This document shows, piece after piece, positions 5,820 through 23,851 of a stretch of DNA of 24,780 nt (position 1 is the first letter of the stretch; each line of letters begins with the position of its first letter). The notes under the pieces were generated by a model. It had not been told where the DNA came from. It did not search any database and saw only the letters and a program-made list of their open reading frames with translations. The DNA is from a bacterium (GTDB taxonomy: Bacteria; ARS69), in the NCBI GenBank assembly GCA_025774865.1, contig JALGZO010000074.1:1-24780 (forward strand), read 5' to 3'. The position numbers and the translations under genes are program-made.

Positions 5820-8800
5820 CTACCGTCGCAGGATGAGCTTCCGGAGACGCGTCTCGGGACCCGCCTCGAGTCGCAGGAAGTACACCCCGGAGCCGACGCG
5901 GGTGCCGGACTCGTTGTCGCCGCGCCAGCGCACCAGTTGGACGCCGGCCGACCGTGGGCCGTTCACGAGGCGACGAACCACGCGCCCCGCGGCGTCGTAG
6001 ATGACGATCTCCACGCGAGTCGGTTCGGGCAAAACGTACTCGACCGTCGTCTCCGTGCGGAACGGGTTCGGGCGGCTCGGGGCCAGGTGGACCGCGCGGA
6101 CGTTCCCGCTCGGCTCCGGCGTCGGGGACGCGATGACGGCCGACCCCGGCCGCAGCTCGAGGGCGGCGACCGCATAATCCACGACCCCGCTGAACTCTCC
6201 GTCGACGACGAAGCTCGTCGGCGTGTCGAACTTCTGATCCATCGTCGCCAGCGACGCCGCAGTACCGGCACTCCCGTACTCGATCTCGACGTGCTCGGTC
6301 CATCCGGTCCCCGGAGTGTGACTCTTGTCACGCATGGCGGCGGCGGCGAAGACGACGGCCGCTTCCGTCGTCGTCGCCAGGTCCAGCGAGTATTGCGAGT
6401 CGTCACTGCCTCCGCTGCAGGAGCCGAACTCGCCTCTGGTGTTTCCCGAAACGGAGGCTCCGATCGGGTCGGTCTCGTGAACTCCCGAATAGCGGGACAC
6501 GACGATCACGGCGCTGTTGGGATCGCTGTCAAGAGTGGCCGAGACCGGTCCGTCGCCGGTGGGCGTGCCGTTGGCTCTCCAGACGTCGAGCCCCGTCTGT
6601 TCTCTCGCGCCGCACTGCGACAGGACGAGGGTCCAGGTGACTCCGAGGCCGCTGACATCCGTCGACGGGAGATATGGCTTCGAACCGACGACGGCGATGT
6701 AGAAATCACGGGTCGCGGCCGAGACATCACTGTCGGTCGTGACCGTGGACGAGCTGGAGGCGCCGCTCGCGGTCTCTTTCAGGACGATGTCTTCGGGCTC
6801 GTCGGAGCCCTCGCCCGTGAGGAGCACGTCGAGCTGTGGCTGGACGGGGTCGTTGCTCGTGACTCGGAACGTCGTCCCGGCGTTGCCGACTGCCGTGGGG
6901 CCGAAACTGATCGTGACGTCGTGAGTCTCGCCGGGCTCGAGCGAGAACGGCCCGCCGCCGGCTTCGATCGAGAACGAGGCGGTGTCCCCACCGGCGAGCT
7001 CGGTCGCGGTCACGGTGAGGGTCCCGGGCCCGTCGTTCCGGATCTCGAACGCCTGCAGGGCGGGCGCGCCGAGGGGCACGATTCCGTAGTCGTGGGAGAG
7101 CGGAGTGACGGCGATGGTCGGCGGGGGCATCGCGACTCCGGTGCCGCTGAGCGAAACGTCGAACGGGTTCTCGCTCGGGTCGTTGCTCGTCAGGCGGAGC
7201 GTGGCGTTCTTGGTCCCTTCACTCGTCGGCGCGAACGTCACGACGACGTCGTGCGTCTCCCCCGGAAGCAGCGTGAAAGGTGCGTCGCCTTCTTCGATCG
7301 AGAATTCCGCGGCATCGCTTCCGACGAGCGTCATCCCGTCGACGCTCAGCGCGGCGAGCCCCGCGTTGCCGACCAGAAGCGTACACGGTACGCCCACACC
7401 GAACTGCGGCACTTCGCCGAAGTCATGCGACCCGGGCACCAGGGCGATGGCGGGAACCGAGTCGGCGGCGGCCGGGAGAAGCTCGAGCGCCACGAGTGAC
7501 CAGTCCACATCCTGGTTGAAGGTGCCGTCCACGTCGACCGTGGTCGGGGTGCCGACCGCCCGGTCCTGAACCGCGATCCCGGCCGCGGTGCTGCCGTTAC
7601 CGTGGTAGAAGTCGAGCCGTTCCGTGTAGCCCGCGCCCGGAGTGTGCGTGCGACGGCGCAGCCCGACGGCGCTGTACACGACGGCCCCGTCGGTGGTGGT
7701 TCCGAGCTCGAACGAGTACGACGTCCCGTCCGATCCGCCGCTGCACGAGCCGTCCGGCCCCCGGGTGTTGCCGGAGACCACGGCCCCCGGACTCGACGGA
7801 TCGACCCCCGAGTAGCGGCATACGGCGATCACCCCGACCGCCGGCGCCGCCGTGAACGTCGCGGTGACGGTGCCCCCCGACGACGGGCCGGAAGCGCGGA
7901 ACACCGTCATCCCGGTCTGCTCGCGGGCGCCGCACTGCTCGCGAACGAGCGTCCAGGTCAATCCGAGCCCGACGACACTCTCCACGATCTCGAATCCCTT
8001 GCTCGAGACGGCGGCCAGGTAGAAATCGTCCGCGCCGGTCACCGACTCCGAGAGCGATCCCGAGACGACGGTGTCGTCGCCGCTGGAGCTGCCCGTCGTG
8101 CTCTCCTCGAACGCGATCTCATCCGGCGGCGGCGGAGTGATCCCGGTGCCGGAGAGACCGACGCCCAGCACTGTCTCGCCGGGAGCATTGCTCGCCAGAT
8201 CGAGCGTCGCGGTCTTGAGGCCCGGCGTGACGGGGATGAAGTCCACCGTGACGTTCCGCGTCTCGCCGGGGAGAAGCGTGAACGAGCCTCCACCGGTCAC
8301 GTGGAACTCGTCGGCGTACGGGCCCGCGAGCGACGTCGACGTCACCACGAGATCACCGCCCCCCGTGTTTCCGATCTCGAACGAGTGTGAGGCCGCCGCA
8401 CCAACGAGTACGGCTCCGAAGTTGTGGGCGGTGGGTGTGCTGGCAATGTCCGGCTGAGGGGCGTCGACGCCGTTGCCGGTGAGCGCGGCGTCGGCGGGAC
8501 TCTCGTCCGGATCGTCGCTCACGATGCGAAGCGTCGCGGCCTTGGGCCCGATGGACTGAGGCTGGAAGCTCACCTCGACCCACTGGGTGTCGCCCGGGGC
8601 CAGGGTGAAACCTCCGCTCGTGACGAGCTCGAAATCCGCCGCGTCCGGGCCCTCGAGGGTGACCGCGGAGACCTGAAGGTCGGCGAGTCCCTCGTTCGTG
8701 ATCTCGAACATCCCCGGCGACCCGGCCCTCAGCCCCGGGGGCGCTGCGATTGCCACGTCCCCGAAGTCGAAGCTCGCGGGTGTCATCACGATGTCCGGGG

Positions 8801-10916
8801 TCGGAGCGAGTCCGATGCCGGTGAGCGGCACGTCGAGCGGGTCATCGGCGGGATCTGGATCGTTGCTGTCGATCTGAAGGAGCGCACCCTTGGGGCCGAC
8901 GGTCGTGGGGCGGAAGCTCACGTCCACCCGATGCGAGTCACCCGGCGCGATCGTGAAGGAACCATCTCCGCCGTCGATCCTGAATTCGCCCGGACTGGCC
9001 CCCCCGAGCGTGACCGCGGACACCTGGAGGTCGGCGACACCCACGTTCCGGATCTGGAACTCCTGCGAGCGACTCGAGTCGACAACCACATCGCCGTACG
9101 CGTGGTTGGAGGGCGACGCCGCGATCTCCGGGAAGGTGATTCCCTCGCCCGCGAGCGCAACGTCGAACGGACTCTCGTTCGGGTCGTTGCTGACCAGGCG
9201 CAACGAGGCGCTCTTCGCGCCACCCGTGGTCGGAGCGAACAGGACCCCGATCGTACGAATCCGGCCGGGAGCCAGGGTGAAAGCCTCGCCGCCCGAGACG
9301 ATCACGAACTCGGAGGCGTCGCTCCCGGTCAGCGTCGGCGCGTCGACGATCAGATCCGTCGTGCCGTCGTTCCGCAGCTGGAACGTCGTCGTCGAAGTCA
9401 CGCCGACGTCCATGGCGCCGAAATCGAAGGTGCCCGGAACGGCGGTGATGTCGGGGCTGTCGCCGCTGCCGCCCCTGATCTCCACGCCGATGACGGCCCA
9501 GTCCGCGGTCGAGCTGAAAGAACCTGCCAGGCGTACTTCGCCCGGCGTCTCGATGAACTGATCGACCACTGAAATGCCGGTGGTGTTCCCTCCGGCGGCG
9601 ATGCTCGCCTCGTCGCGCGTGCTCCAGCCGGAGCCGGCGTGGTGGATCCGCTGGCGCTTCGCGACGGCGCCGAACACGATGGCATCGTCGGAGCTCGCAT
9701 CGAGATCCAGGCGGTAGTCCTTGCTGTCGGAGCCGCCACTGCACGAGCCTTGCACGCCCTTCGTGTTCTTGGACGAGACCGTTCCGAACGGGTCGTTCGG
9801 ATCCCCACCGGAGTACCGCGCCACCACGATGACCGCGGACGCCGGGGCCTCCTCGAAGGTGGCCGTGACGGCGTTACCACTCGTCGCGCCGGTCGCGGCC
9901 CAGACCTCCACGCCGGTCTGCCCGCGTCCTCCGCACTGCTCCTCGAGGCGCGACCACGTGGCGCCGAGCCCCGTGACGCTCGAGACGTCCACGTGATACC
10001 GCGAGCTGATCGCGGCGAGGTAGGTGCCGCCGCCCCCCGAGAGGCCGCTCGCGGTGACGGACGCCGACCCCATCGAACCGCCGCTCGCGCTCTCCTCGAA
10101 TACCACCGGTGCAGCCGAGTAGACTCCGGCCCCGTGGAGCGCCAACTCGGTCACCGGTCCCCAGGGATCGTTGCTCGTAACGGACAAGGAGGCGTCCTTC
10201 GGTCCCACCACGAGCGGCGTGAACCGCACCACCACGTCGACGCTGTCGCCCGGAGGCAGGAGAAAGGGGGTGCCGCCCCCCTCGAGGGAGAAGTCCGCCG
10301 CCTCACTGCCGGCGATCGCCATGTCCGTGATGTCCAGGTCGAGGTTGCCCTCGTTGCGGATCGTGATCGTGCTCGCGGAGTCGGAACCCACGCGCACCGC
10401 GTCGAAGTCGACAGCGGTCGGAGTGATCGCGATGCCCGGGGCCACTCCCTGACCCGTGAGCGTCAGGTCGAGCGGATTCTCCCCGGTGTCCGGGTCGTTG
10501 CTCTCAACGAGCAGGATCGCGTTCTTCGGGCCAATCCCCGTGGGCCGGAAGGTCACGACGACCCGTTGCGAGTCGCCCGGTGCGAGCATGACCGGGTCGC
10601 CTCCCGAATAGATGGAGAAGTCAGCTGGGTTATCGCCCGCGAGTGCGATCGACGAGACGTCGAGGTAGCCGTCTCCCACGCTCTGGATTTCGAACCCGTA
10701 CGAGTGGCTCCGGCCGACGACCTCGTCGCCGTAGTCATGGGAGGTGGGCGTCACTTCGATGTCCGGGATCCCCTCCCTCTGGATCGTGTACGAGTCGATG
10801 AGCGTGCCCCCGCCGGCGATGGAGTGGAACTCGAACGTGATTTCCTGGCCGTCGGCCACGACGAGCATGGTGCCGTAGTCGTCGTTGTACCGCTCCCCTC
10901 GGTCGTGCTTCCGAAA
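5820..10916 (-). CDS. 3' part of the giant secreted phosphoesterase protein: ASH repeats, three novel modules, FlgD-like sorting domain
   Basis: The reading frame from about 10916 down to the TAG at 5820-5822 continues the phosphoesterase gene in a different frame. In order it holds two ASH (choice-of-anchor D) repeats, an unrecognised module of about 215 residues, four ASH repeats, a second module copy, two ASH repeats, a third module copy, a Pro-rich linker, and a FlgD-like Ig sorting domain. The sorting domain has APSRPNPFRTETTVEY, VIYDAAGRVVRRL, GSGVYFLRLEAG and a final RKLILRR. ASH repeats show D-F/Y-G-x-V near the start, LxPGxxxxVxVxFxPxxxGxKxAxLxxxSNDP in the middle and LxGxG at the end. 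The export route is inferred to be Sec then type IX-like, with surface attachment or release. The frame stays open up to 11144, but that extra part overlaps phosphoesterase coding and is not real. Confidence 0.85.
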   Translation of the reverse strand, partial: FRKHDRGERYNDDYGTMLVVADGQEITFEFHSIAGGGTLIDSYTIQREGIPDIEVTPTSHDYGDEVVGRSHSYGFEIQSVGDGYLDVSSIALAGDNPADFSIYSGGDPVMLAPGDSQRVVVTFRPTGIGPKNAILLVESNDPDTGENPLDLTLTGQGVAPGIAITPTAVDFDAVRVGSDSASTITIRNEGNLDLDITDMAIAGSEAADFSLEGGGTPFLLPPGDSVDVVVRFTPLVVGPKDASLSVTSNDPWGPVTELALHGAGVYSAAPVVFEESASGGSMGSASVTASGLSGGGGTYLAAISSRYHVDVSSVTGLGATWSRLEEQCGGRGQTGVEVWAATGATSGNAVTATFEEAPASAVIVVARYSGGDPNDPFGTVSSKNTKGVQGSCSGGSDSKDYRLDLDASSDDAIVFGAVAKRQRIHHAGSGWSTRDEASIAAGGNTTGISVVDQFIETPGEVRLAGSFSSTADWAVIGVEIRGGSGDSPDITAVPGTFDFGAMDVGVTSTTTFQLRNDGTTDLIVDAPTLTGSDASEFVIVSGGEAFTLAPGRIRTIGVLFAPTTGGAKSASLRLVSNDPNESPFDVALAGEGITFPEIAASPSNHAYGDVVVDSSRSQEFQIRNVGVADLQVSAVTLGGASPGEFRIDGGDGSFTIAPGDSHRVDVSFRPTTVGPKGALLQIDSNDPDPADDPLDVPLTGIGLAPTPDIVMTPASFDFGDVAIAAPPGLRAGSPGMFEITNEGLADLQVSAVTLEGPDAADFELVTSGGFTLAPGDTQWVEVSFQPQSIGPKAATLRIVSDDPDESPADAALTGNGVDAPQPDIASTPTAHNFGAVLVGAAASHSFEIGNTGGGDLVVTSTSLAGPYADEFHVTGGGSFTLLPGETRNVTVDFIPVTPGLKTATLDLASNAPGETVLGVGLSGTGITPPPPDEIAFEESTTGSSSGDDTVVSGSLSESVTGADDFYLAAVSSKGFEIVESVVGLGLTWTLVREQCGAREQTGMTVFRASGPSSGGTVTATFTAAPAVGVIAVCRYSGVDPSSPGAVVSGNTRGPDGSCSGGSDGTSYSFELGTTTDGAVVYSAVGLRRRTHTPGAGYTERLDFYHGNGSTAAGIAVQDRAVGTPTTVDVDGTFNQDVDWSLVALELLPAAADSVPAIALVPGSHDFGEVPQFGVGVPCTLLVGNAGLAALSVDGMTLVGSDAAEFSIEEGDAPFTLLPGETHDVVVTFAPTSEGTKNATLRLTSNDPSENPFDVSLSGTGVAMPPPTIAVTPLSHDYGIVPLGAPALQAFEIRNDGPGTLTVTATELAGGDTASFSIEAGGGPFSLEPGETHDVTISFGPTAVGNAGTTFRVTSNDPVQPQLDVLLTGEGSDEPEDIVLKETASGASSSSTVTTDSDVSAATRDFYIAVVGSKPYLPSTDVSGLGVTWTLVLSQCGAREQTGLDVWRANGTPTGDGPVSATLDSDPNSAVIVVSRYSGVHETDPIGASVSGNTRGEFGSCSGGSDDSQYSLDLATTTEAAVVFAAAAMRDKSHTPGTGWTEHVEIEYGSAGTAASLATMDQKFDTPTSFVVDGEFSGVVDYAVAALELRPGSAVIASPTPEPSGNVRAVHLAPSRPNPFRTETTVEYVLPEPTRVEIVIYDAAGRVVRRLVNGPRSAGVQLVRWRGDNESGTRVGSGVYFLRLEAGPETRLRKLILRR
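6147..6790 (-). repeat. Third copy of the unrecognised 215-residue module
   Basis: This is the copy nearest the C-terminus, between ASH repeat 8 and the sorting domain. It runs from DIVLKETASG to ALELRPG. Landmarks shared with the other copies are W-T-L-V-x-x-Q-C-G-A-R-E-Q-T-G, V-I-V-V-x-R-Y-S-G, a G-S-C-S-G-G-S-D turn and a final V-D-x-x-V-A-A-L-E-L. I do not recognise the family. Confidence 0.7.
6791..7470 (-). repeat. ASH (choice-of-anchor D) repeats 7 and 8
   Basis: Two tandem repeats of about 110 residues lie between the second and third unknown modules. Each has the pattern S-H-D-Y/F-G, L-x-P-G-E-T-H-D-V, S-N-D-P and L-x-G-x-G. They are predicted Ig-like beta-sandwich spacers. Confidence 0.8.
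7471..8120 (-). repeat. Second copy of the unrecognised 215-residue module
   Basis: It runs from EIAFEESTTG to LVALELLPA and shares LTWTLVREQCGAREQTG, CRYSGVDP, SGNTRG and GSCSGGSD with the third copy. It has one extra Cys (in VCRYSG) beyond the two found in all copies. Confidence 0.7.
8121..9462 (-). repeat. ASH (choice-of-anchor D) repeats 3 to 6
   Basis: Four tandem repeats of about 110 residues start from DITAVPGTFDFG, PEIAASPSNHAYG, DIVMTPASFDFG and DIASTPTAHNFG. Repeats 4 and 5 share a near-identical stretch (VADLQVSAVTL versus LADLQVSAVTL), suggesting recent duplication of neighbouring units. Confidence 0.8.
9463..10109 (-). repeat. First copy of the unrecognised 215-residue module
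   Basis: It runs from VVFEESASGG to VIGVEIRGG and keeps TWSRLEEQCGGRGQTG, VIVVARYSGGDP and GSCSGGSD. It is the most diverged of the three copies. It sits between ASH repeats 2 and 3. Confidence 0.7.
10110..10772 (-). repeat. ASH (choice-of-anchor D) repeats 1 and 2
   Basis: Two tandem repeats directly follow the phosphoesterase domain (DIEVTPTSHDYG and AITPTAVDFDAV at their starts). They keep the S-N-D-P and L-x-G-x-G landmarks of the family. Confidence 0.8.
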
Positions 10917-11677
10917 CTCCGAAGACTCCTGCCGCCCGCGCCGCAGACGAAGTAGGGGTAGGCATCCTGGACGATGCGCTCGTAGTCGTGATCGTGGCCG
11001 GACAGGACGGTCGTCGCGCCCCACTCCTCGAACGGCCACTGCATGACGGGGTTGTCGCCGTGGCTTCCGCTCGAATAGGGGGGATGGTGGAACATGACGA
11101 TCTTCCAGGGGGACGTCGATGCGCTCAGCTGCGCCTCCAGCCACTGCGCCTGATCGGAGTCCGCGGAGCGGCCGTCGGGCTCCGGGGCGTTGCTGTTGAT
11201 CGCGAAGAAGTGGATGGGGCCGAGCACGAAGTCGTAGTAGCGTTCGTTGCCGGACGTGTTCGTCGTCTGGATTCCCGCTCCCGGGAGCGTGAAGTAGTCG
11301 AGGTAGCCGTCGACACCGTCGCCGTCATCGTAGTCGTGGTTGCCGAGGCACGTGAAGAAGCGATTCTGCGGCGATCCCTGGCCGTAGTCCCCTGTGTAAT
11401 CTCCGATGTAATCTGAGTAATACTTGCCGACGTTTACGTCGATCGGGGTGCTGCCGTAGCTGTTGTCGCCGAGAGTGACGATAGCGTCGACGCCGAGGCT
11501 GTCGACGAGTACGGCGACGGCGAGCTCTTCGGGCGAATCGTCCCCGTAGTCGCCGAATACGGCGAGACGGACCGGAGCGGCGGGAGCGGTGGTGGCCGCC
11601 AGGGTGAAGCTGACGAGGGCCAGAAGGGCGCTCGTGAGCAGTCGAGACCAGGGGCGCGGAGCGGAGTGAGTCGACAA
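10751..11677 (-). CDS. 5' part of the giant secreted protein: purple-acid-phosphatase-like metallophosphoesterase
   Basis: From a TTG at 11677 this reads a signal peptide (residues 1 to about 34, hydrophobic core LLTSALLALVSFTLAA) and then a calcineurin-like phosphoesterase. It carries all the metal-ligand motifs: GDYG (Asp43), LGDNSYG (Asp71, Asn72), GNHD (Asn113, His114), FHHPPY (His197, His198) and SGHDHDYER (His228, His230). GDxG plus GHDHxYER points to the purple-acid-phosphatase-like branch, a dinuclear phosphomonoesterase; the substrate is unknown. Sense ends at about residue 255 (CGAGGRSLRSF). After that the frame gives Thr/Ser-rich noise to 10751, while the next frame continues RKHDRGERYNDDYG. 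An ATG at 11854 is in frame but would bury the signal peptide 60 residues in, so TTG is preferred. One extra base at about 10914 makes 5820-11677 a single gene of 1952 codons. Confidence 0.82.
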   Translation of the reverse strand: MSTHSAPRPWSRLLTSALLALVSFTLAATTAPAAPVRLAVFGDYGDDSPEELAVAVLVDSLGVDAIVTLGDNSYGSTPIDVNVGKYYSDYIGDYTGDYGQGSPQNRFFTCLGNHDYDDGDGVDGYLDYFTLPGAGIQTTNTSGNERYYDFVLGPIHFFAINSNAPEPDGRSADSDQAQWLEAQLSASTSPWKIVMFHHPPYSSGSHGDNPVMQWPFEEWGATTVLSGHDHDYERIVQDAYPYFVCGAGGRSLRSFGSTTEGSGTTTTTAPCSSWPTARKSRSSSTPSPAGARSSTRTRSRGRGSRTSK

Positions 11678-13358: not shown

Positions 13359-14090
13359 ATGATGGGACGCTTCAAGCCGCCCCCCGAGGATCCAACCGGG
13401 TCGAGCGACTGCCCGCCTGTGCTCCCCGGTCTTCGGGCGGAATCCCTCGCTCGCCTCGAAGACGCGAAGACGTCCCACCGTTACGAGCGAGGTCAAGTCC
13501 TTCACTACGAGGGGAACCCCTGCACGGGAGTGCACGTGATCGCGTCCGGGCGGGCGAAGCTCGTTCGGACCACCGCGGCGGGTCGACATTGCATCCTCCG
13601 GATCGCCAATCCGGGAGATGTGCTCGGGTTGGACGCGTTGCTCGCCGCCGATCGGTGTTACTCGGCGACCGCCGCGATGCTCGAGGCCGGCGTGGTGTCC
13701 TTCGTCGAGCGCGATGTCTTCATGAACGTGATCAGAAGCGATCCGTCGGCGGCGGAGGCAGTCTTCGGAATCCTGTGCGAGTGGACTCGCAGATCGGACG
13801 AGGAACGTCTCGAGCTCATCGGCAGCGGCGTTCGCGAAAGGACCGCCCGCGTGCTCGTGCAGCTCGCTCGGGACCACGGTGTCGCTGCGGGATCCGGCGT
13901 GCTGATCCGGATGAAGCTCTCGCGCGAGGAGCTCGCGGAGATGATCGGTTCGGCGGCCGAGACCGTGACGCGACAGCTCGCCGAGTTCCGCGAGAGCAAC
14001 CTCGTCAAGCTCGACGGTCGCAAGATCGTCGTGATCGACGTCGAGGGACTCTCACGCGTCGGGCACCCTCAGGAATTTTCCGTTTCTTGA
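13359..14090 (+). CDS. Crp/Fnr-family transcriptional regulator
   Basis: This is a 243-residue protein. Residues about 25-140 form the cyclic-nucleotide-binding-type beta-roll (RYERGQVLHYEGNPCTGVHV, then GRAKLVRTTAAGR, then LRIANPGDVLG). A dimer helix follows, then a winged HTH at about 160-228, with SREELAEMIGSAAETVTRQL as the recognition unit (Glu201, Arg205 in the E-x-x-x-R position used to read DNA by CRP/FNR). It has Cys at 18, 55, 78, 100 and 140, but not the spacing of the four cluster ligands of FNR. The cAMP-binding R-S signature is also absent, so the effector is unknown. It starts at an ATG just after GGGGGA. The gene is divergent from the TMEM14/lipoprotein pair with 58 bases between starts, so it may control that pair or itself. 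Confidence 0.9.
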   Translation: MMGRFKPPPEDPTGSSDCPPVLPGLRAESLARLEDAKTSHRYERGQVLHYEGNPCTGVHVIASGRAKLVRTTAAGRHCILRIANPGDVLGLDALLAADRCYSATAAMLEAGVVSFVERDVFMNVIRSDPSAAEAVFGILCEWTRRSDEERLELIGSGVRERTARVLVQLARDHGVAAGSGVLIRMKLSREELAEMIGSAAETVTRQLAEFRESNLVKLDGRKIVVIDVEGLSRVGHPQEFSVS

Positions 14091-14159
14091 CGAAGATCAA
14101 CCTTTTTTCTGATGATCGTCATGGTGTCGTGCGCTCAGATGCTTATCTTGGAACGTGCA

Positions 14160-14544
14160 CACCGGGAATCGATCGACATAGGGGGCCGGTCGTTCCCGAT
14201 CCCGGGAAACCGGGAAGTGTGGCGACGCCGGGTATCACCCGGCCGCGACGGCGAGCAACTCGCCGACTAAGCAAGTCCAGGGAAGTCTCGACGGCGCCGG
14301 ACCCCAACCGGCCCAGAGGACCGTAGTCCGTGGGCCCGTGAACGAGGCGCTGAGCGGAAGCGGGGATACGGATCCCCGATCGAGGTTTCCCGAGCGGAAG
14401 GTGAGGAGGCCAAGAATACCGGCACGAGCCCGGAGCCCCGAGAGTGCTCGGGGGAAAACCAGGGCCTGCGATCCGAACCCGCTTTTCGTTCGCATCCCCC
14501 GCTCGTCAGTCGGCTTTCGGCCACAGGCGGGCGGGGGATTTTTT
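14160..14544 (+). ncRNA. Candidate structured RNA, unidentified family
   Basis: The gap 14091-14613 is the only gene-free stretch over 300 bases. It holds a series of perfect short hairpins in the plus sense: CGGGAA/TTCCCG with inner CGAC/GTCG (14163-14198); CCCGG-GAAA-CCGGG with a GNRA loop (14201-14214); GCCGGG/CCCGGC (14227-14243); CGGCGAG/CTCGCCG (14249-14265); GCCGG/CCGGC (14296-14312); GGAC/GTCC (14318-14329); CGGGGAT/ATCCCCG (14361-14378); CCCCGAG/CTCGGGG (14436-14453); TGCGA/TCGCA (14467-14494). It ends in a terminator-like stem with a T-run. I do not find the conserved cores of RNase P, tmRNA, SRP RNA or common riboswitches. A 5' end near 14150 is a guess. It could be a free ncRNA or a leader of the aldolase gene; GC-rich DNA folds easily, so confidence is moderate. 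Confidence 0.4.
14494..14544 (+). terminator. Rho-independent terminator-like hairpin with T-run
   Basis: ATCCCCCGC (14494-14502) pairs perfectly with GCGGGGGAT (14531-14539), and the run T539-T544 follows directly. A smaller stem (GGC-TTTCG-GCC) sits in the loop. It lies about 70 bases before the aldolase start, so it can end the candidate structured RNA or attenuate transcription into the aldolase gene. Confidence 0.6.
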
Positions 14545-14577
14545 GTGCCCAGGGAGCCGAGAGTGTGCCGATTAGGG

Positions 14578-14594
14578 TAGAATGGGGGCCCATT
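14578..14594 (+). promoter_or_regulatory. -10-like box and small inverted repeat before the aldolase gene
   Basis: TAGAAT (14578-14583) matches the -10 consensus at five of six positions and lies after the terminator-like hairpin, suggesting the aldolase has its own promoter. No good -35 is visible. AATGGG (14581-14586) and CCCATT (14589-14594) form an inverted repeat overlapping it. Confidence 0.35.
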
Positions 14595-14613
14595 CTGCGA
14601 GAAGGAGACTGAG

Positions 14614-15690
14614 ATGACGGTCGATGTGAGGGCGAACACCTTGATCGAGACGATACGTGATCGGCTCGGGCCGGACGCTTCGCTCCTGGAACACACTTGT
14701 CAGACGATTCCGAAGGAGCGCTTGAGTCTTCCGGGCCCCGACTTCGTCGATCGGGTTCTGACCGACTCGGACCGCCCCATCGCCGTCAATCGTGCCTACC
14801 AACAGCTGCTGAATCATGGTCGCCTCGCCGGCACCGGCTACGTTTCTTTGCTGCCCGTGGATCAGGGCATCGAACATACGGCCGGCGCCTCCTTCGCGCC
14901 GAACCCGGCCTATTTCGATCCTGAGAACATCGTGAAGCTCGCGATCGAAGGCGGCTGCAACGGCGTCGCGACGACACTCGGCGTGCTCGGTATGGTCGCA
15001 CGCAAGTATGCGCATCGAATCCCGTTCATCCTCAAATTCAATCACAACGAGCTGCTCACCTATCCGAACAAGTACGACCAGACGCTGTTCGCGAACGTGC
15101 GCCAGGCGTTCGAGATGGGATGCGTGGGTGTCGGCGCCACGATTTACTGGGGCTCGGAGGAGTCGTCTCGTCAGCTGCAGGAAGTGTCGGATGCGTTCCA
15201 CCTGGCCCACGAGCTCGGGATGGTCTGCGTTCTGTGGTGCTATCTGAGGAACCCGGCCTTCAAGAAGAACGGTACCGACTATCACGCGGCCGCCGACCTC
15301 ACGGGTCAGGCGAATCACCTCGGCGCCACTCTCCAAGCGGACATCGTGAAGCAGAAGCTGCCTACGAACAACGGCGGCTTCCGGGCGATCGGGTTCGGCA
15401 AGACACACGACAAGGTCTACTCGGAGCTGACCACCGATCACCCGATCGACCTCTGCCGCTACCAGGTCGCGAACAACTACATGGGACGCGTCGGTTTGAT
15501 CAACTCCGGAGGCGCGTCCGGCGAGAACGACCTGCACCAGGCGGTGTGCACCGCGGTCATCAACAAGCGCGCCGGCGGCATGGGACTCATCTCGGGTCGA
15601 AAGGCGTTCCAGAAGCCCATGAGTGATGGCGTCGAGCTGCTGAACGCCATCCAGGACGTCTATCGCTGCTCGGACGTGACGGTGGCGTAG
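14614..15690 (+). CDS. fbaB: Class I fructose-bisphosphate aldolase, DhnA/FbaB type
   Basis: This enzyme cleaves or forms fructose-1,6-bisphosphate from glyceraldehyde-3-phosphate and dihydroxyacetone phosphate in glycolysis and gluconeogenesis, in the cytoplasm. The 358 residues fit the FbaB length (about 350). Landmarks are [16 protein letters not shown] (80-94), [26 protein letters not shown] (140-152), [11 protein letters not shown] and [14 protein letters not shown], in which Lys246 or Lys248 is the expected Schiff-base position. The start has a good AAGGAG (14602-14607) six bases upstream. The gene follows the candidate structured RNA and converges on the FG-GAP protein gene, with a bidirectional-looking terminator between. 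Metal-dependent class II aldolase is excluded by the overall DhnA pattern. Confidence 0.96.
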
Positions 15691-15747: not shown

Positions 15748-17787
15748 TTACCGCAGGATCGTCACCTTTTTCGACGAGACGAACTCGTCGGCCTCCACCC
15801 GCAGGAAGTAAACGCCGTTCGGCAGTCGACGTCCCCGCGCGTCGCGGCCGTCCCACTCCACGCTCACGTCGCCCTGGTGAACGTCGCGGCGATCGATCGC
15901 GGCGACGCGCCGACCGCCGGCGTCGAAGACGTCGAGGCGCCACGATTGCGGGCGAGGCACACGAAACTCGATCCTGACTTGGGAGGCGGCCACCGGGTTC
16001 GGCCGAGTCCGGATCTCGGGAATGGCGAGGGCCCCGTCGGATTTCGTGCGGGTAAGCGTCGCGGACGGCGAGTACCCGACAACCCGTGACTCCGACAGAA
16101 GGGCGAATCGGTAAGTGTAGCTCTTGCCCACTTCCGCGGATCCGTCAACGAACTCGGCCCGCCCGCCCCGGATCGGAAGTTCGCCGGAGATCTTCGTCCA
16201 GTGGATTTGAGGATCCTGGGATCGCGCCTTCATCGCCTGCTCCGGCGTGAGCAGCCCTTCCCGGTACGCCTCCGCCACTTCGCGACGAAACCGCTGAGCC
16301 GCTGCGGCCCCGTTCGGCTCACCCTCGTGCCGTTCGACGAAACACGCGTCGTACGCGAGCGCCCCGTGAAGCCGGACGAGGAGCCCGGCCGGCCCCGGGA
16401 CTCCCTCGACGAACACCGGCAAGTCCGCCGACGTCGCGTCCTCACCGCCCTCGAGAAGGTACGCACGACCTCCGGGCGGACCCGACAGCATCTGTGATCC
16501 GGCCATCACGTCGGGGCGGGAGTTCCCGGTGAGGTCGGACACGCCCTTGACGTAGTAGAGCCGATTGCCGGTGTTGTACTTCCACACTTCGGTCCCGGTC
16601 ACGCCGTCGAGCAGGTACACGAACTGGTCGAACGATCCCGCGACGACGTCGTTGATGCCGTCCGCGGTCAGGTCGGCGACGCGCGACACCGTCCATACAT
16701 CGCCGCCCGTCGGAAAGCTCCAGATCTGGGTGCCATCGGCGCCGGAGATCACGAACGCTCGGTCGTCCCACGTGCCGATGGCGGCGTCCTGTGCCCCGTC
16801 GTCGTTCACGTCGTCGAGCACCGCGATCTGCTGCACGTACGCGAACCCCGGAAAGACCGATTCCCAGAGTGTGTCGCCCGTGACACCGTTGAACGCGAGC
16901 ACGCTGGAGTCCCAGGTGCCCGCGAGCACGTCGTTGACGGAGTCCCCGGAGATGTCTTCGATCCGGGCGGCCGCGAGGCAGCTGCCCGCGAGCGGGTGAT
17001 CCCACACCACCGGGTTGGCCGTGCTGCCGCCGCGCAGGCACCAGACGTGGTCCGCGTTGTCGCCGACGCCGATGACCACGTCGCCCTTTCCATCGCTCGT
17101 GACGTCTTCCAGCGCCGCCGACGCGAAGACGGCGTCGACGAGATTCAGGCTCCAGAGCAAGGTGCCGTCCTGGCCGCTCATGTGGTAAACGCGGTTGTTG
17201 TCGGAGCCGCATCCGAACACGACGTCGGGAAACGAGTCGCCGTTCGTGTCCGGGATCCAGGAGATGGTGTAGACCCAGCCGGACTCCGGAGGAATCGGCG
17301 GCGAGTCGGAATAGGTATCGAAATCCCAGTGGACGGCGCCGTTCGTCCCGTCGATCACGTACGCGGTGCGCCCACCCCAGGCCGTACCCAGGAGCACATC
17401 TTCGGTGCCGTCCCCGGTCAGGTCGGGGGTGACCTGCATGCACTCGTCGCCCCAGCCTCCGCTGTGGCTCGGTCCTCCGGGCGGCCGGGTGGACCAGATC
17501 GTCGTGGCGAGAGGACCGGGTGATCCGCCGCTCAGGCAGTAGAGGTGGTCGCCGGTGCCGCCCGCGTCGTACGACTCGAGGACGATGTCCGGGACGTCGT
17601 CGGAGTCCTGATCCTCGATCTCGTCGATGGTATTCACGTCCTCGATGCCCTGAAAGAACCAAACGAGGTCGCCACCGCCCGCAAATACGCGGGCGGGAAG
17701 AAACCCTAGCGCGAGCAGCGGCAGAGCGAGGCGAGCCCATCGGCGGCCTCCGCGTCGCCGGCGATTCTCGTGGGCGGAGCGCGACAT
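15748..17787 (-). CDS. Secreted FG-GAP/PQQ-like propeller protein with FlgD-like sorting domain
   Basis: This is a 679-residue protein with an Arg-rich n-region, hydrophobic core and AFA-type cleavage near residue 36 (ALPLLALGFLPARVFA). Residues about 38-470 are repeated propeller blades. Each has a calcium-loop-like D-x-T/N-x-D-G/S-x-x-D-V-V/L motif (for example DLTGDGTEDVLLG and DTNGDSFPDVVFG) and PQQ-like G-x-x-x-W strands, as in FG-GAP/VCBS proteins. Residues about 470-585 look like a fibronectin-III-like spacer. Residues about 590-679 form the sorting domain (RTRPNPVAASQVRIEF, then VFDAGGRRVAAI, then NGVYFLRVEA and a final KKVTILR). GGGGG precedes the ATG at about eight bases. The inferred location is the cell surface or medium. 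No enzymatic residues are evident, so adhesion or binding is only a guess. Confidence 0.85.
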   Translation of the reverse strand: MSRSAHENRRRRGGRRWARLALPLLALGFLPARVFAGGGDLVWFFQGIEDVNTIDEIEDQDSDDVPDIVLESYDAGGTGDHLYCLSGGSPGPLATTIWSTRPPGGPSHSGGWGDECMQVTPDLTGDGTEDVLLGTAWGGRTAYVIDGTNGAVHWDFDTYSDSPPIPPESGWVYTISWIPDTNGDSFPDVVFGCGSDNNRVYHMSGQDGTLLWSLNLVDAVFASAALEDVTSDGKGDVVIGVGDNADHVWCLRGGSTANPVVWDHPLAGSCLAAARIEDISGDSVNDVLAGTWDSSVLAFNGVTGDTLWESVFPGFAYVQQIAVLDDVNDDGAQDAAIGTWDDRAFVISGADGTQIWSFPTGGDVWTVSRVADLTADGINDVVAGSFDQFVYLLDGVTGTEVWKYNTGNRLYYVKGVSDLTGNSRPDVMAGSQMLSGPPGGRAYLLEGGEDATSADLPVFVEGVPGPAGLLVRLHGALAYDACFVERHEGEPNGAAAAQRFRREVAEAYREGLLTPEQAMKARSQDPQIHWTKISGELPIRGGRAEFVDGSAEVGKSYTYRFALLSESRVVGYSPSATLTRTKSDGALAIPEIRTRPNPVAASQVRIEFRVPRPQSWRLDVFDAGGRRVAAIDRRDVHQGDVSVEWDGRDARGRRLPNGVYFLRVEADEFVSSKKVTILR

Positions 17788-21787: not shown

Positions 21788-23686
21788 TCACTGCCGGGAG
21801 AGGTGCACGAGCTTCCGCGTCTGCGAGGAGCTCTCCGAGTCGAGGCGATAGAAGTACACGCCCCCCGCCACGCGGCGTCCATTCGAGGTGCCGTCCCAGG
21901 TGACGGCGTGCTCGCCGGCGGGAAGCTCGGCGTTCACGAGCGACGTGACGACGCGACCGGCCACGTCGTAGACCGTGACCTTCGCGTGCGAATCGCGACT
22001 CAAGGTGAACGCGATCTCCGTCCGCTGCCGGAAGGGGTTCGGTCGCGCCGGCGCGAGAGCCGTGCGGACGCCCCACGTCGGCGTCGTGATCTCGACCGGG
22101 CCGTAGAGGTCCTCCTCCCCCGCGACGCCGACGGCGCCGACCTTGTAGAAGTAAGTCGTGGAGGGTCGCACCTGCGAGTCCACCCAGCGGTAGGGGCTGT
22201 GCCCGCGCACGAGCTCGTCCGTGAGTCGCGTGTACTGGCCGTGCCGCGCGCGGCTCCGGTAAACGTGGAAGCCGTCGTGGTCGATCTCGAGCGACGTACT
22301 CCACTCGATCCCGATCCCCGGCGAGCGCAGATCGACCGTCGCCCGCAACCCGGACAGCTCGACCAGTGTCGGCTGGGCGAGGACCTCCATGCAGTAGAAG
22401 CCCTCGATGTCGTCGGCCGTGCTGGACGTTCCCGCGGTGTCGACGTCGGCCGTGAAGTAGATCTTCACGTTGCCGAGGTCCCGGTCGCTCAGCGTGAGCG
22501 ACGAGATCCCGGTGAACGACGAGATCGCCGTGCCCCCGTCGATCACTCCGTCGCCGTCCAGGTCGACCGAGTCGCCGTCCTGGAGCAGTAAATCGTCGTT
22601 CAGGAACAGCGCCTCGTTCGCGTTGGCGTCGACGTCCCAGATGTACGCGATGTCACCGTCCGCGTTCAGGTATGCGCCTTCGATCGAGCCCGAGACGATC
22701 TTGCCGCCTACCACGTCGCCCTCGCGGACGATGATGGCGCCGTTCTTCAGGATGAACTCGTCGGTGGCGGTGTCCCCGTCCGTGTCCCCCGTGAAGAAGA
22801 AATCGCCGGCCTCGTTGATTCCGGTGTAGTCGAAGTTGTCCCAGGCCTCACCCCCGATGCCGCCGACGGACAGGGGGATCATGTTGCCCTCCTGGACGAG
22901 GGTGCCGCCGAGAATCAGGCCCTCGCCGGTGACCACCATGGCGTTGTCGGACGCGGAGGTGCCTTCCATCTGCACCTCGGCGATGTAGTCGCTCGCGAGC
23001 TCCGAGAACCGGTAGTCGAAGCTGACGGTGTTCGCAGTGCTCAGAACGGCCGGCAGATTCGGCACGGCGTCGCCGCCGAGCAGGAGCGGTAGACCGGTCT
23101 CACCGAAGAACAGACCGCGGTTCTCCGTATTGCCTCCCTGGGTGCTCGTGAGTCCGCCGACCCAGAACGGGATGCCGTCGGCGCTGATACCGGGGCGGGA
23201 ACCGAACCGCCACCACTGGCCGGGAATGTGAGCGTAGGGGTCGCCTTCGACGGCGAGTGGATCGTCGTCCTTCCAGACCGAATCGAAATCACCGACCGGA
23301 CCCCCCGAGCCCGACGCGCTGTACGCGACCGACCCGGAGTTGTCCATGCCGTAGAAGCTCTCGAAGCTCTCCTGTACGAGGCCGCCGAACGTGCCCTCGG
23401 TCCGGATGTTGGCACCGGGTCCACCGCTGGCGTGGCCCCAGACGTGGCTGAGGGTGGTCGTTCCGTCGGTCGAGTTGACCGTCGCGGCGAAGCCGTCGGC
23501 GTGATTGACGGCCGTGTTGTTGATGGCGTTCACGGCGTGATTGGCGCCACCGGCAGGGTAGGGGTCGCCCTCGTTGAGGAGCGAGGACGCGACGAGAGTG
23601 CCGGCGGTGCCCGGAGCGCCGGCCAGGAGGCCGAGCGTCACCACGAGCGTCGTGCCGAACAGAACCTGTCGTAAGGATCGTGACAT
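21788..23686 (-). CDS. Secreted repeat protein with fibronectin-III-like region and FlgD-like sorting domain
   Basis: This is 632 residues from the ATG at 23686, which follows GGGAGGAG. An upstream in-frame start at 23806 would put the signal peptide 40 residues in. The signal peptide is MSRSLRQVLFGTTLVVTLG with cleavage near GTAG. Residues about 30-420 hold irregular repeats of the type x-I-N-N/E-x-G-x-x-x-x-x and x-L-x-x-G-D/N, such as ILKNGAIIVREGDVVGGK and FLNDDLLLQDGDSVDLDGDG. These are seen in surface proteins with NxxG tandem repeats. A DxDxDGxxD calcium-like loop is included. About 450-545 is a fibronectin-III-like unit (IEWSTSLEIDHDGFHVYRS, TYFYKVGAVG). The sorting domain ends the protein (APARPNPFRQRTEIAFTL, VYDVAGRVVTSL, AGGVYFYRLDS, RKLVHLSRQ). 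No enzyme motif is visible. Confidence 0.83.
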   Translation of the reverse strand: MSRSLRQVLFGTTLVVTLGLLAGAPGTAGTLVASSLLNEGDPYPAGGANHAVNAINNTAVNHADGFAATVNSTDGTTTLSHVWGHASGGPGANIRTEGTFGGLVQESFESFYGMDNSGSVAYSASGSGGPVGDFDSVWKDDDPLAVEGDPYAHIPGQWWRFGSRPGISADGIPFWVGGLTSTQGGNTENRGLFFGETGLPLLLGGDAVPNLPAVLSTANTVSFDYRFSELASDYIAEVQMEGTSASDNAMVVTGEGLILGGTLVQEGNMIPLSVGGIGGEAWDNFDYTGINEAGDFFFTGDTDGDTATDEFILKNGAIIVREGDVVGGKIVSGSIEGAYLNADGDIAYIWDVDANANEALFLNDDLLLQDGDSVDLDGDGVIDGGTAISSFTGISSLTLSDRDLGNVKIYFTADVDTAGTSSTADDIEGFYCMEVLAQPTLVELSGLRATVDLRSPGIGIEWSTSLEIDHDGFHVYRSRARHGQYTRLTDELVRGHSPYRWVDSQVRPSTTYFYKVGAVGVAGEEDLYGPVEITTPTWGVRTALAPARPNPFRQRTEIAFTLSRDSHAKVTVYDVAGRVVTSLVNAELPAGEHAVTWDGTSNGRRVAGGVYFYRLDSESSSQTRKLVHLSRQ

Positions 23687-23753
23687 GACTCCTCCCGCGG
23701 GGTGGAAGTCGGGAGCGGCGGATTCGCTTCGGTGGGTGGCGGCGGCGCAGGAA

Positions 23754-23778
23754 TCCGGCGGGCGAGCCCGCAGCCGGA
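23754..23778. other. Hairpin in the gap between two minus-strand secreted-protein genes
   Basis: TCCGGC (23754-23759) pairs with GCCGGA (23773-23778), with an inner GGGC/GCCC. There is no T-run on the minus side. It may end transcription of the gene at 23852 or lie in the leader of the next one. The rest of 23687-23851 shows nothing else that I can support. Confidence 0.3.
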
Positions 23779-23851
23779 GGGTACGTCCGGGAAGAACCGG
23801 ATTCAACGGTCAGCTTTTCGGGTGGCAAGGGCGCCGCGGCTCGCTATTCCC

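Follow-up and report, generated by a model that had tools for sequence, protein, structure and literature searches.

A candidate structured non-coding RNA between a Crp/Fnr-type regulator gene and a class I aldolase gene in an uncultured bacterium

Results and discussion

A strongly folded and terminated intergenic region

The window analysed here, a 24,780-nt stretch that represents one contig of an uncultured bacterium, contains a 524-base gap between the stop codon of a Crp/Fnr-type regulator gene (at 14090) and the start codon of a class I fructose-bisphosphate aldolase gene (at 14614). Inside this gap lies a region (14156-14545; Table 1) whose + strand folds beyond what its composition predicts and which ends in an intrinsic terminator. 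With middling confidence, we interpret this region as encoding a discrete structured RNA that ends at its own terminator and is either limited to its lineage or evolving too fast to be recognised in sister genera. The 5' end of this candidate RNA is uncertain and possibly lies as far upstream as ~14123. Elsewhere in the window, a 1774-residue protein (5820-11144, - strand) combines numerous Ig-like domains of the HYDIN/ASH type with a FlgD-like Ig domain at its C terminus; 15748-17787 also encodes a FlgD-like tail, and 21788-23806 a T9SS-type sorting tail, which suggests secreted proteins that share a common sorting signal.

Table 1. Features of the candidate RNA locus and its flanking genes (window coordinates; P, pairing probability)
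Feature	Position	Strand	Details
Crp/Fnr-type regulator gene	13359-14090	+	PF13545, PF00027
Possible sigma-70-type promoter	14087-14116	+	TTGACG-18-GATGAT; 9/12 consensus match; would start transcript near 14123
43-codon open frame	14139-14270	+	Overlaps 5' domain; not regarded as a gene
Candidate structured non-coding RNA (whole predicted transcript body)	14156-14545	+	Fold z -5.88; second-lowest of 1136 own-genome tiles; no coding signal
5' three-way-junction domain	14159-14220	+	Possible closing stem CACAC/GUGUG, hairpin 14163-14198, GAAA-capped hairpin 14200-14215
Exact 7-bp hairpin	14227-14243	+	GCCGGGT-ATC-ACCCGGC; P = 1.0
Exact 7-bp hairpin	14249-14265	+	CGGCGAG-CAA-CTCGCCG; P = 0.99-1.0
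Central multibranch domain	14280-14391	+	12-bp stem GGGAAGUCUCGA/UCGAGGUUUCCC around long arm and hairpin 14361-14378
80-codon open frame	14338-14580		
Exact 7-bp hairpin	14436-14453	+	CCCCGAG-AGTG-CTCGGGG; P = 0.99
Intrinsic terminator	14494-14545	+	14-bp stem (~14494-14539), interrupted extension above, then TTTTTT; P = 1.0; inverted repeat I1
Class I fructose-bisphosphate aldolase gene	14614-15690	+	NF006707, 648 bits

The folding energy of 14160-14544 was -200.4 kcal/mol, compared with -171.4 +/- 5.9 kcal/mol in dinucleotide shuffles (z = -4.94), and none of 100 shuffles was as low, which agrees with the description of this region as a heavily structured RNA in an initial annotation made from the sequence alone. 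For the full candidate (+ strand), the energy was -204.3 kcal/mol, and the z against dinucleotide shuffles weakened from -5.88 to -3.85 once the terminator was removed, a value that we count against a discrete RNA. Folded separately, the terminator block (14491-14545) reached -35.1 kcal/mol (z -7.4), the 5' domain a z of -5.3, and the central domain -59.9 kcal/mol (z -3.48). In one coarse scan, the + strand folded better than the - strand (z -3.86 vs -3.33).

The candidate was further compared with its own genome, using 1136 tiles (390 nt each, both strands) drawn from the window and from twenty further stretches, with energy regressed on dinucleotide content. After this dinucleotide correction (Z = -3.90), only one tile had a lower energy, and that tile holds a tRNA gene; the next after the candidate spans the boundary of two genes. 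The source genome's own RNase P RNA, exactly placed, scored at the same level (Z = -4.01), and the RNase P and tmRNA of relatives reached only -1.2 to -2.9, so that this measure is neither necessary nor sufficient, and folding energy taken alone is weak evidence of a functional RNA. The share of unpaired As was 0.66 in the candidate, 0.57 +/- 0.08 in the tiles, and 0.70 in RNase P, and As exceeded Ts with a skew of 0.18 (RNase P, 0.29).

Seven helices (14163-14198, 14200-14215, 14227-14243, 14249-14265, 14310-14337 with its tip at 14318-14329, 14436-14453, and 14494-14539) had a pairing probability of at least 0.99 with either assumed 5' end (14120 or 14156). Both hairpins of the 5' domain, including the one with the GAAA (GNRA) loop that had been pointed out earlier, had P = 1.0 in two contexts, and the closing stem of this domain reached 0.04-0.23 only. 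The long arm of the central domain (14310-14337) carries GGAC-CGTA-GTCC at its tip. Pairing of GGGAAGUCUCGA with UCGAGGUUUCCC depended on the assumed 5' end (P = 1.0 with a start at 14156, 0.01 with a start at 14120), and the central stem and the global fold are thus uncertain. As for the number of hairpins, the initial annotation had counted at least nine exact ones; ten with stems of at least 4 bp do exist, but such a number is ordinary (8.1 in shuffles; reached by 120 of 500), whereas the five with stems of at least 6 bp compare with 1.0 in shuffles and were matched by none of the 500.

Transcription signals and coding potential

The terminator-like stem and six Ts that had been proposed to close the run are indeed present (Table 1), oriented along the + strand and 70 bases before the aldolase start. 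A simple terminator scan did not detect 14494-14545, probably because the limits of the scan exclude a long interrupted stem. At the other end, the promoter-like site was the sole match in a consensus scan (1 vs 0.1 in shuffles), and is a consensus match only. The same site and the Crp/Fnr stop codon are overlapped by a 12-nt dyad (TGACGAAGATCA / TGATGATCGTCA; 14088-14121; 83% complementary, 10 bases between arms), which may serve as an operator or form a weak hairpin. Shortly 3' of the terminator lies an exact 8-bp palindrome (AGAATGGG-GG-CCCATTCT; 14579-14596), and the TAGAAT that it overlaps could be the -10 box of an aldolase promoter.

Mechanistically, we envisage that a promoter just 3' of the Crp/Fnr stop codon drives an RNA of ~390-425 nt, transcribed in the direction of the flanking genes, which would most likely act in trans as a folded RNA by binding a protein or by base-pairing. 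The terminator would both make the 3' end of this RNA and insulate the aldolase gene, leaving the latter to a promoter of its own.

A small protein encoded in the gap appears highly improbable. Open frames of 43 and 80 codons exist, and to this extent the earlier statement that there is no plausible ORF was nearly, not wholly, right; neither frame, however, has the marked rise in third-position G+C seen in the Crp/Fnr and aldolase genes (0.70/0.50/0.70 by codon position in the 43-codon frame vs 0.69/0.48/0.80 in the Crp gene), no protein or Pfam match was found for open frames in the gap, and the region folds strongly as RNA.

Comparison with known RNA families

The candidate region had no match to any family in the window-wide search against Rfam (Rfam 15) at gathering thresholds, and a search of 14080-14620 at E values up to 10 gave two chance-level matches only (one to an element of a plant virus, the other to a model of a human lncRNA). 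There were no model matches in 14080-14620 to SRP RNA, 6S RNA, group I/II introns, or known riboswitches, and none at the locus to OLE, GOLLD, ROOL, or HEARO, either above gathering score or at E up to 10. A segment from ~14128 (GUGCGCUCAGAU) resembles group II introns at their 5' terminus; this reading was rejected, as the intron models had no match. The Rfam search, which had been recommended earlier as a check, thus leaves the RNA without a family and, together with the folding statistics and the terminator, supports the initial view of a structured RNA distinct from RNase P, tmRNA, and SRP RNA.

Could the locus still encode a highly diverged or rearranged version of a known RNA (RNase P, a possibly permuted tmRNA, SRP RNA, 6S RNA, or an intron remnant)? 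Its length would suit RNase P or tmRNA, and a full tmRNA gene was not found in the whole source assembly. Nevertheless, this explanation is close to refuted and we regard it as very unlikely. RNase P RNA class A (RF00010) was not matched anywhere in the window, a search with E values of up to 10 did not detect it either, and the source genome's RNase P was recovered on another contig (C69) with 323 bits; at the locus, neither the tmRNA models (RF00023 and variants) nor ARAGORN identified a tmRNA, and there was no similarity to the tmRNA and RNase P sequences of relatives. Two relatives carry their tmRNA beside tRNA genes, and the missing tmRNA of the source genome therefore most likely falls in an assembly gap.

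Search for homologues

Searches with blastn against 98 and then 386 genomes, and against phages and plasmids, returned only short, chance-level matches, the four best of which, inspected one by one, lay inside long open frames or straddled them. Covariance models built from the single sequence, one for the 5' domain (R1) and one for the central domain (R2), recovered the query and chance matches in coding genes only. The sole foreign match to these models (G001:C237; 26.4 bits, E 0.05) was rejected as chance, being inside a 342-codon open frame; the gene concerned (L108, 1365-2393) resembles, on visual inspection, that of an ApbE-type flavin transferase and illustrates how G+C-rich coding DNA can match a structural model by chance. 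A full-length sequence-only profile (R3) gave a best foreign match with E 0.006 and others at 0.04-1, also in the source's own genome, and all six that were inspected were in long open frames. In viral contigs, exact-pattern scans found nothing, nor was a Crp/Fnr protein found there. The source genome has a second Crp/Fnr gene (L124, G000:C331; 42% identical), with a gap of ~440 bases upstream (~1480-1920, - strand) that contains several GC-rich inverted repeats; neither Rfam nor the domain models derived from the present locus match this second locus.

Comparison within the phylum drew on four other genomes, each from a different genus and all from the same family as the source genome. None of the four had a recognisable candidate RNA. 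Two are well assembled (96% and 100% complete), and the other two (67% and 82%) are less informative; judged by these searches, the two well-assembled relatives either lack the RNA or carry an unrecognisable version of it. The comparison of homologous intergenic regions that had been suggested earlier therefore revealed no conservation in relatives, of which there were only four, and this result tells against the initial proposal. Blastn easily finds the relatives' housekeeping RNAs (RNase P 87-91% identical; tmRNA 85% between G002 and G003), and we count zero homologues in all searches, set against this 85-91% identity, as evidence against a discrete RNA.

These results bear on a null reading in which a non-functional intergenic stretch folds well by chance and is followed by the ordinary terminator of the Crp/Fnr transcript, i.e., a 3' UTR. 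The lack of homologues and of conservation would be expected, stable folds are common at high G+C, the terminator supplies a good part of the folding signal, and the number of short hairpins is ordinary. Less easily accommodated are the rank of the candidate among the own-genome tiles after dinucleotide correction, the excess of hairpins of at least 6 bp, the low z of the 5' domain and of the central domain (-3.5) when folded alone, and the length itself, since a 400-base 3' UTR is unusual. Because a single sequence yields no evolutionary evidence, we consider chance folding unlikely but still a serious contender.

Relationship to the aldolase gene

The initial annotation had also raised the possibility of a long, metabolite-sensing leader of the aldolase gene. 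Such a riboswitch-like attenuator would act in cis, with an upstream domain whose sensing of a ligand governs formation of the terminator at 14494-14545. Its strand is that of the aldolase gene, and the terminator is placed like that of an attenuator; moreover, in the absence of its 3' arm, the 5' arm of the terminator is predicted to find other partners, namely 14171-14185 (P ~0.8) for an RNA starting at 14120 or 14392-14402 (P 0.3-0.5) for one starting at 14156. The terminated fold is, however, favoured by ~23-27 kcal/mol over the best fold that leaves the 3' arm unpaired, 390 nt would be very long for a leader, and no known riboswitch family matched.

Relatives also argue against this interpretation. 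In G002, a single contig carries both a Crp homologue (51%) and the aldolase (82%), which keep their order and orientation but stand ~2.4 kb apart, with an opposite-strand gene between them and short gaps that hold nothing resembling the candidate RNA. In G004, the ~160 bases upstream of the aldolase (L004) are unrelated to it. Since one relative keeps the gene order without the RNA, and the orthologues checked (L007 in G002 and L004 in G004; 81-82% identity) have short and different upstream regions, the element is not a conserved aldolase leader. With orthologues that do without it and a terminated fold so strongly favoured, the metabolite-sensing proposal is not supported; we rate a leader function as doubtful, and less likely than a discrete trans-acting RNA.

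Comparison with known systems

Among described systems, the discrete RNA that we favour is most readily compared with the orphan candidates found by searches of long, G+C-rich bacterial intergenic regions (GC-IGRs; PMC8632094, PMC11109978). It resembles them in its long intergenic region, stable multi-helix fold, and position outside known families, but differs in that theirs have homologues and covariation, whereas the present locus is a single sequence; published searches exploit long, G+C-rich gaps (PMC8632094), and each new class rests on homologue comparison. OLE, GOLLD, ROOL, and HEARO (PMC12286853) are likewise intergenic, multi-domain, and heavily paired, but they are classes with many members, and the present locus matches none of their Rfam models; OLE, at ~600 nt, is longer than the candidate (PMC9723947). 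RNase P RNA class A has a similar length (359 nt in the source genome) and a similar folding score, but its copy resides on a different contig, and the locus has no sequence or model match to it. Attenuation leaders and riboswitches share the arrangement of a structured RNA and a terminator on the coding strand 5' of a metabolic gene; unlike them, the present element is missing from the aldolase orthologues checked and has no energetically plausible antiterminator.

Conclusions

The locus is best filed as a sound orphan structured-RNA candidate outside any known family. More speculatively, it may represent a new class of large (~400 nt), multi-domain RNA in one genus of a sparsely sampled phylum, possibly with a ribonucleoprotein or regulatory role tied to its Crp/Fnr neighbour, a possibility that we hold only tentatively. 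Should the transcript prove real, a poorly sampled phylum would gain another orphan structured RNA; such RNAs are difficult to detect there, since comparative methods depend on the availability of relatives. A single-sequence candidate of this kind is valuable as a defined target in searching metagenomes and in RNA-seq.
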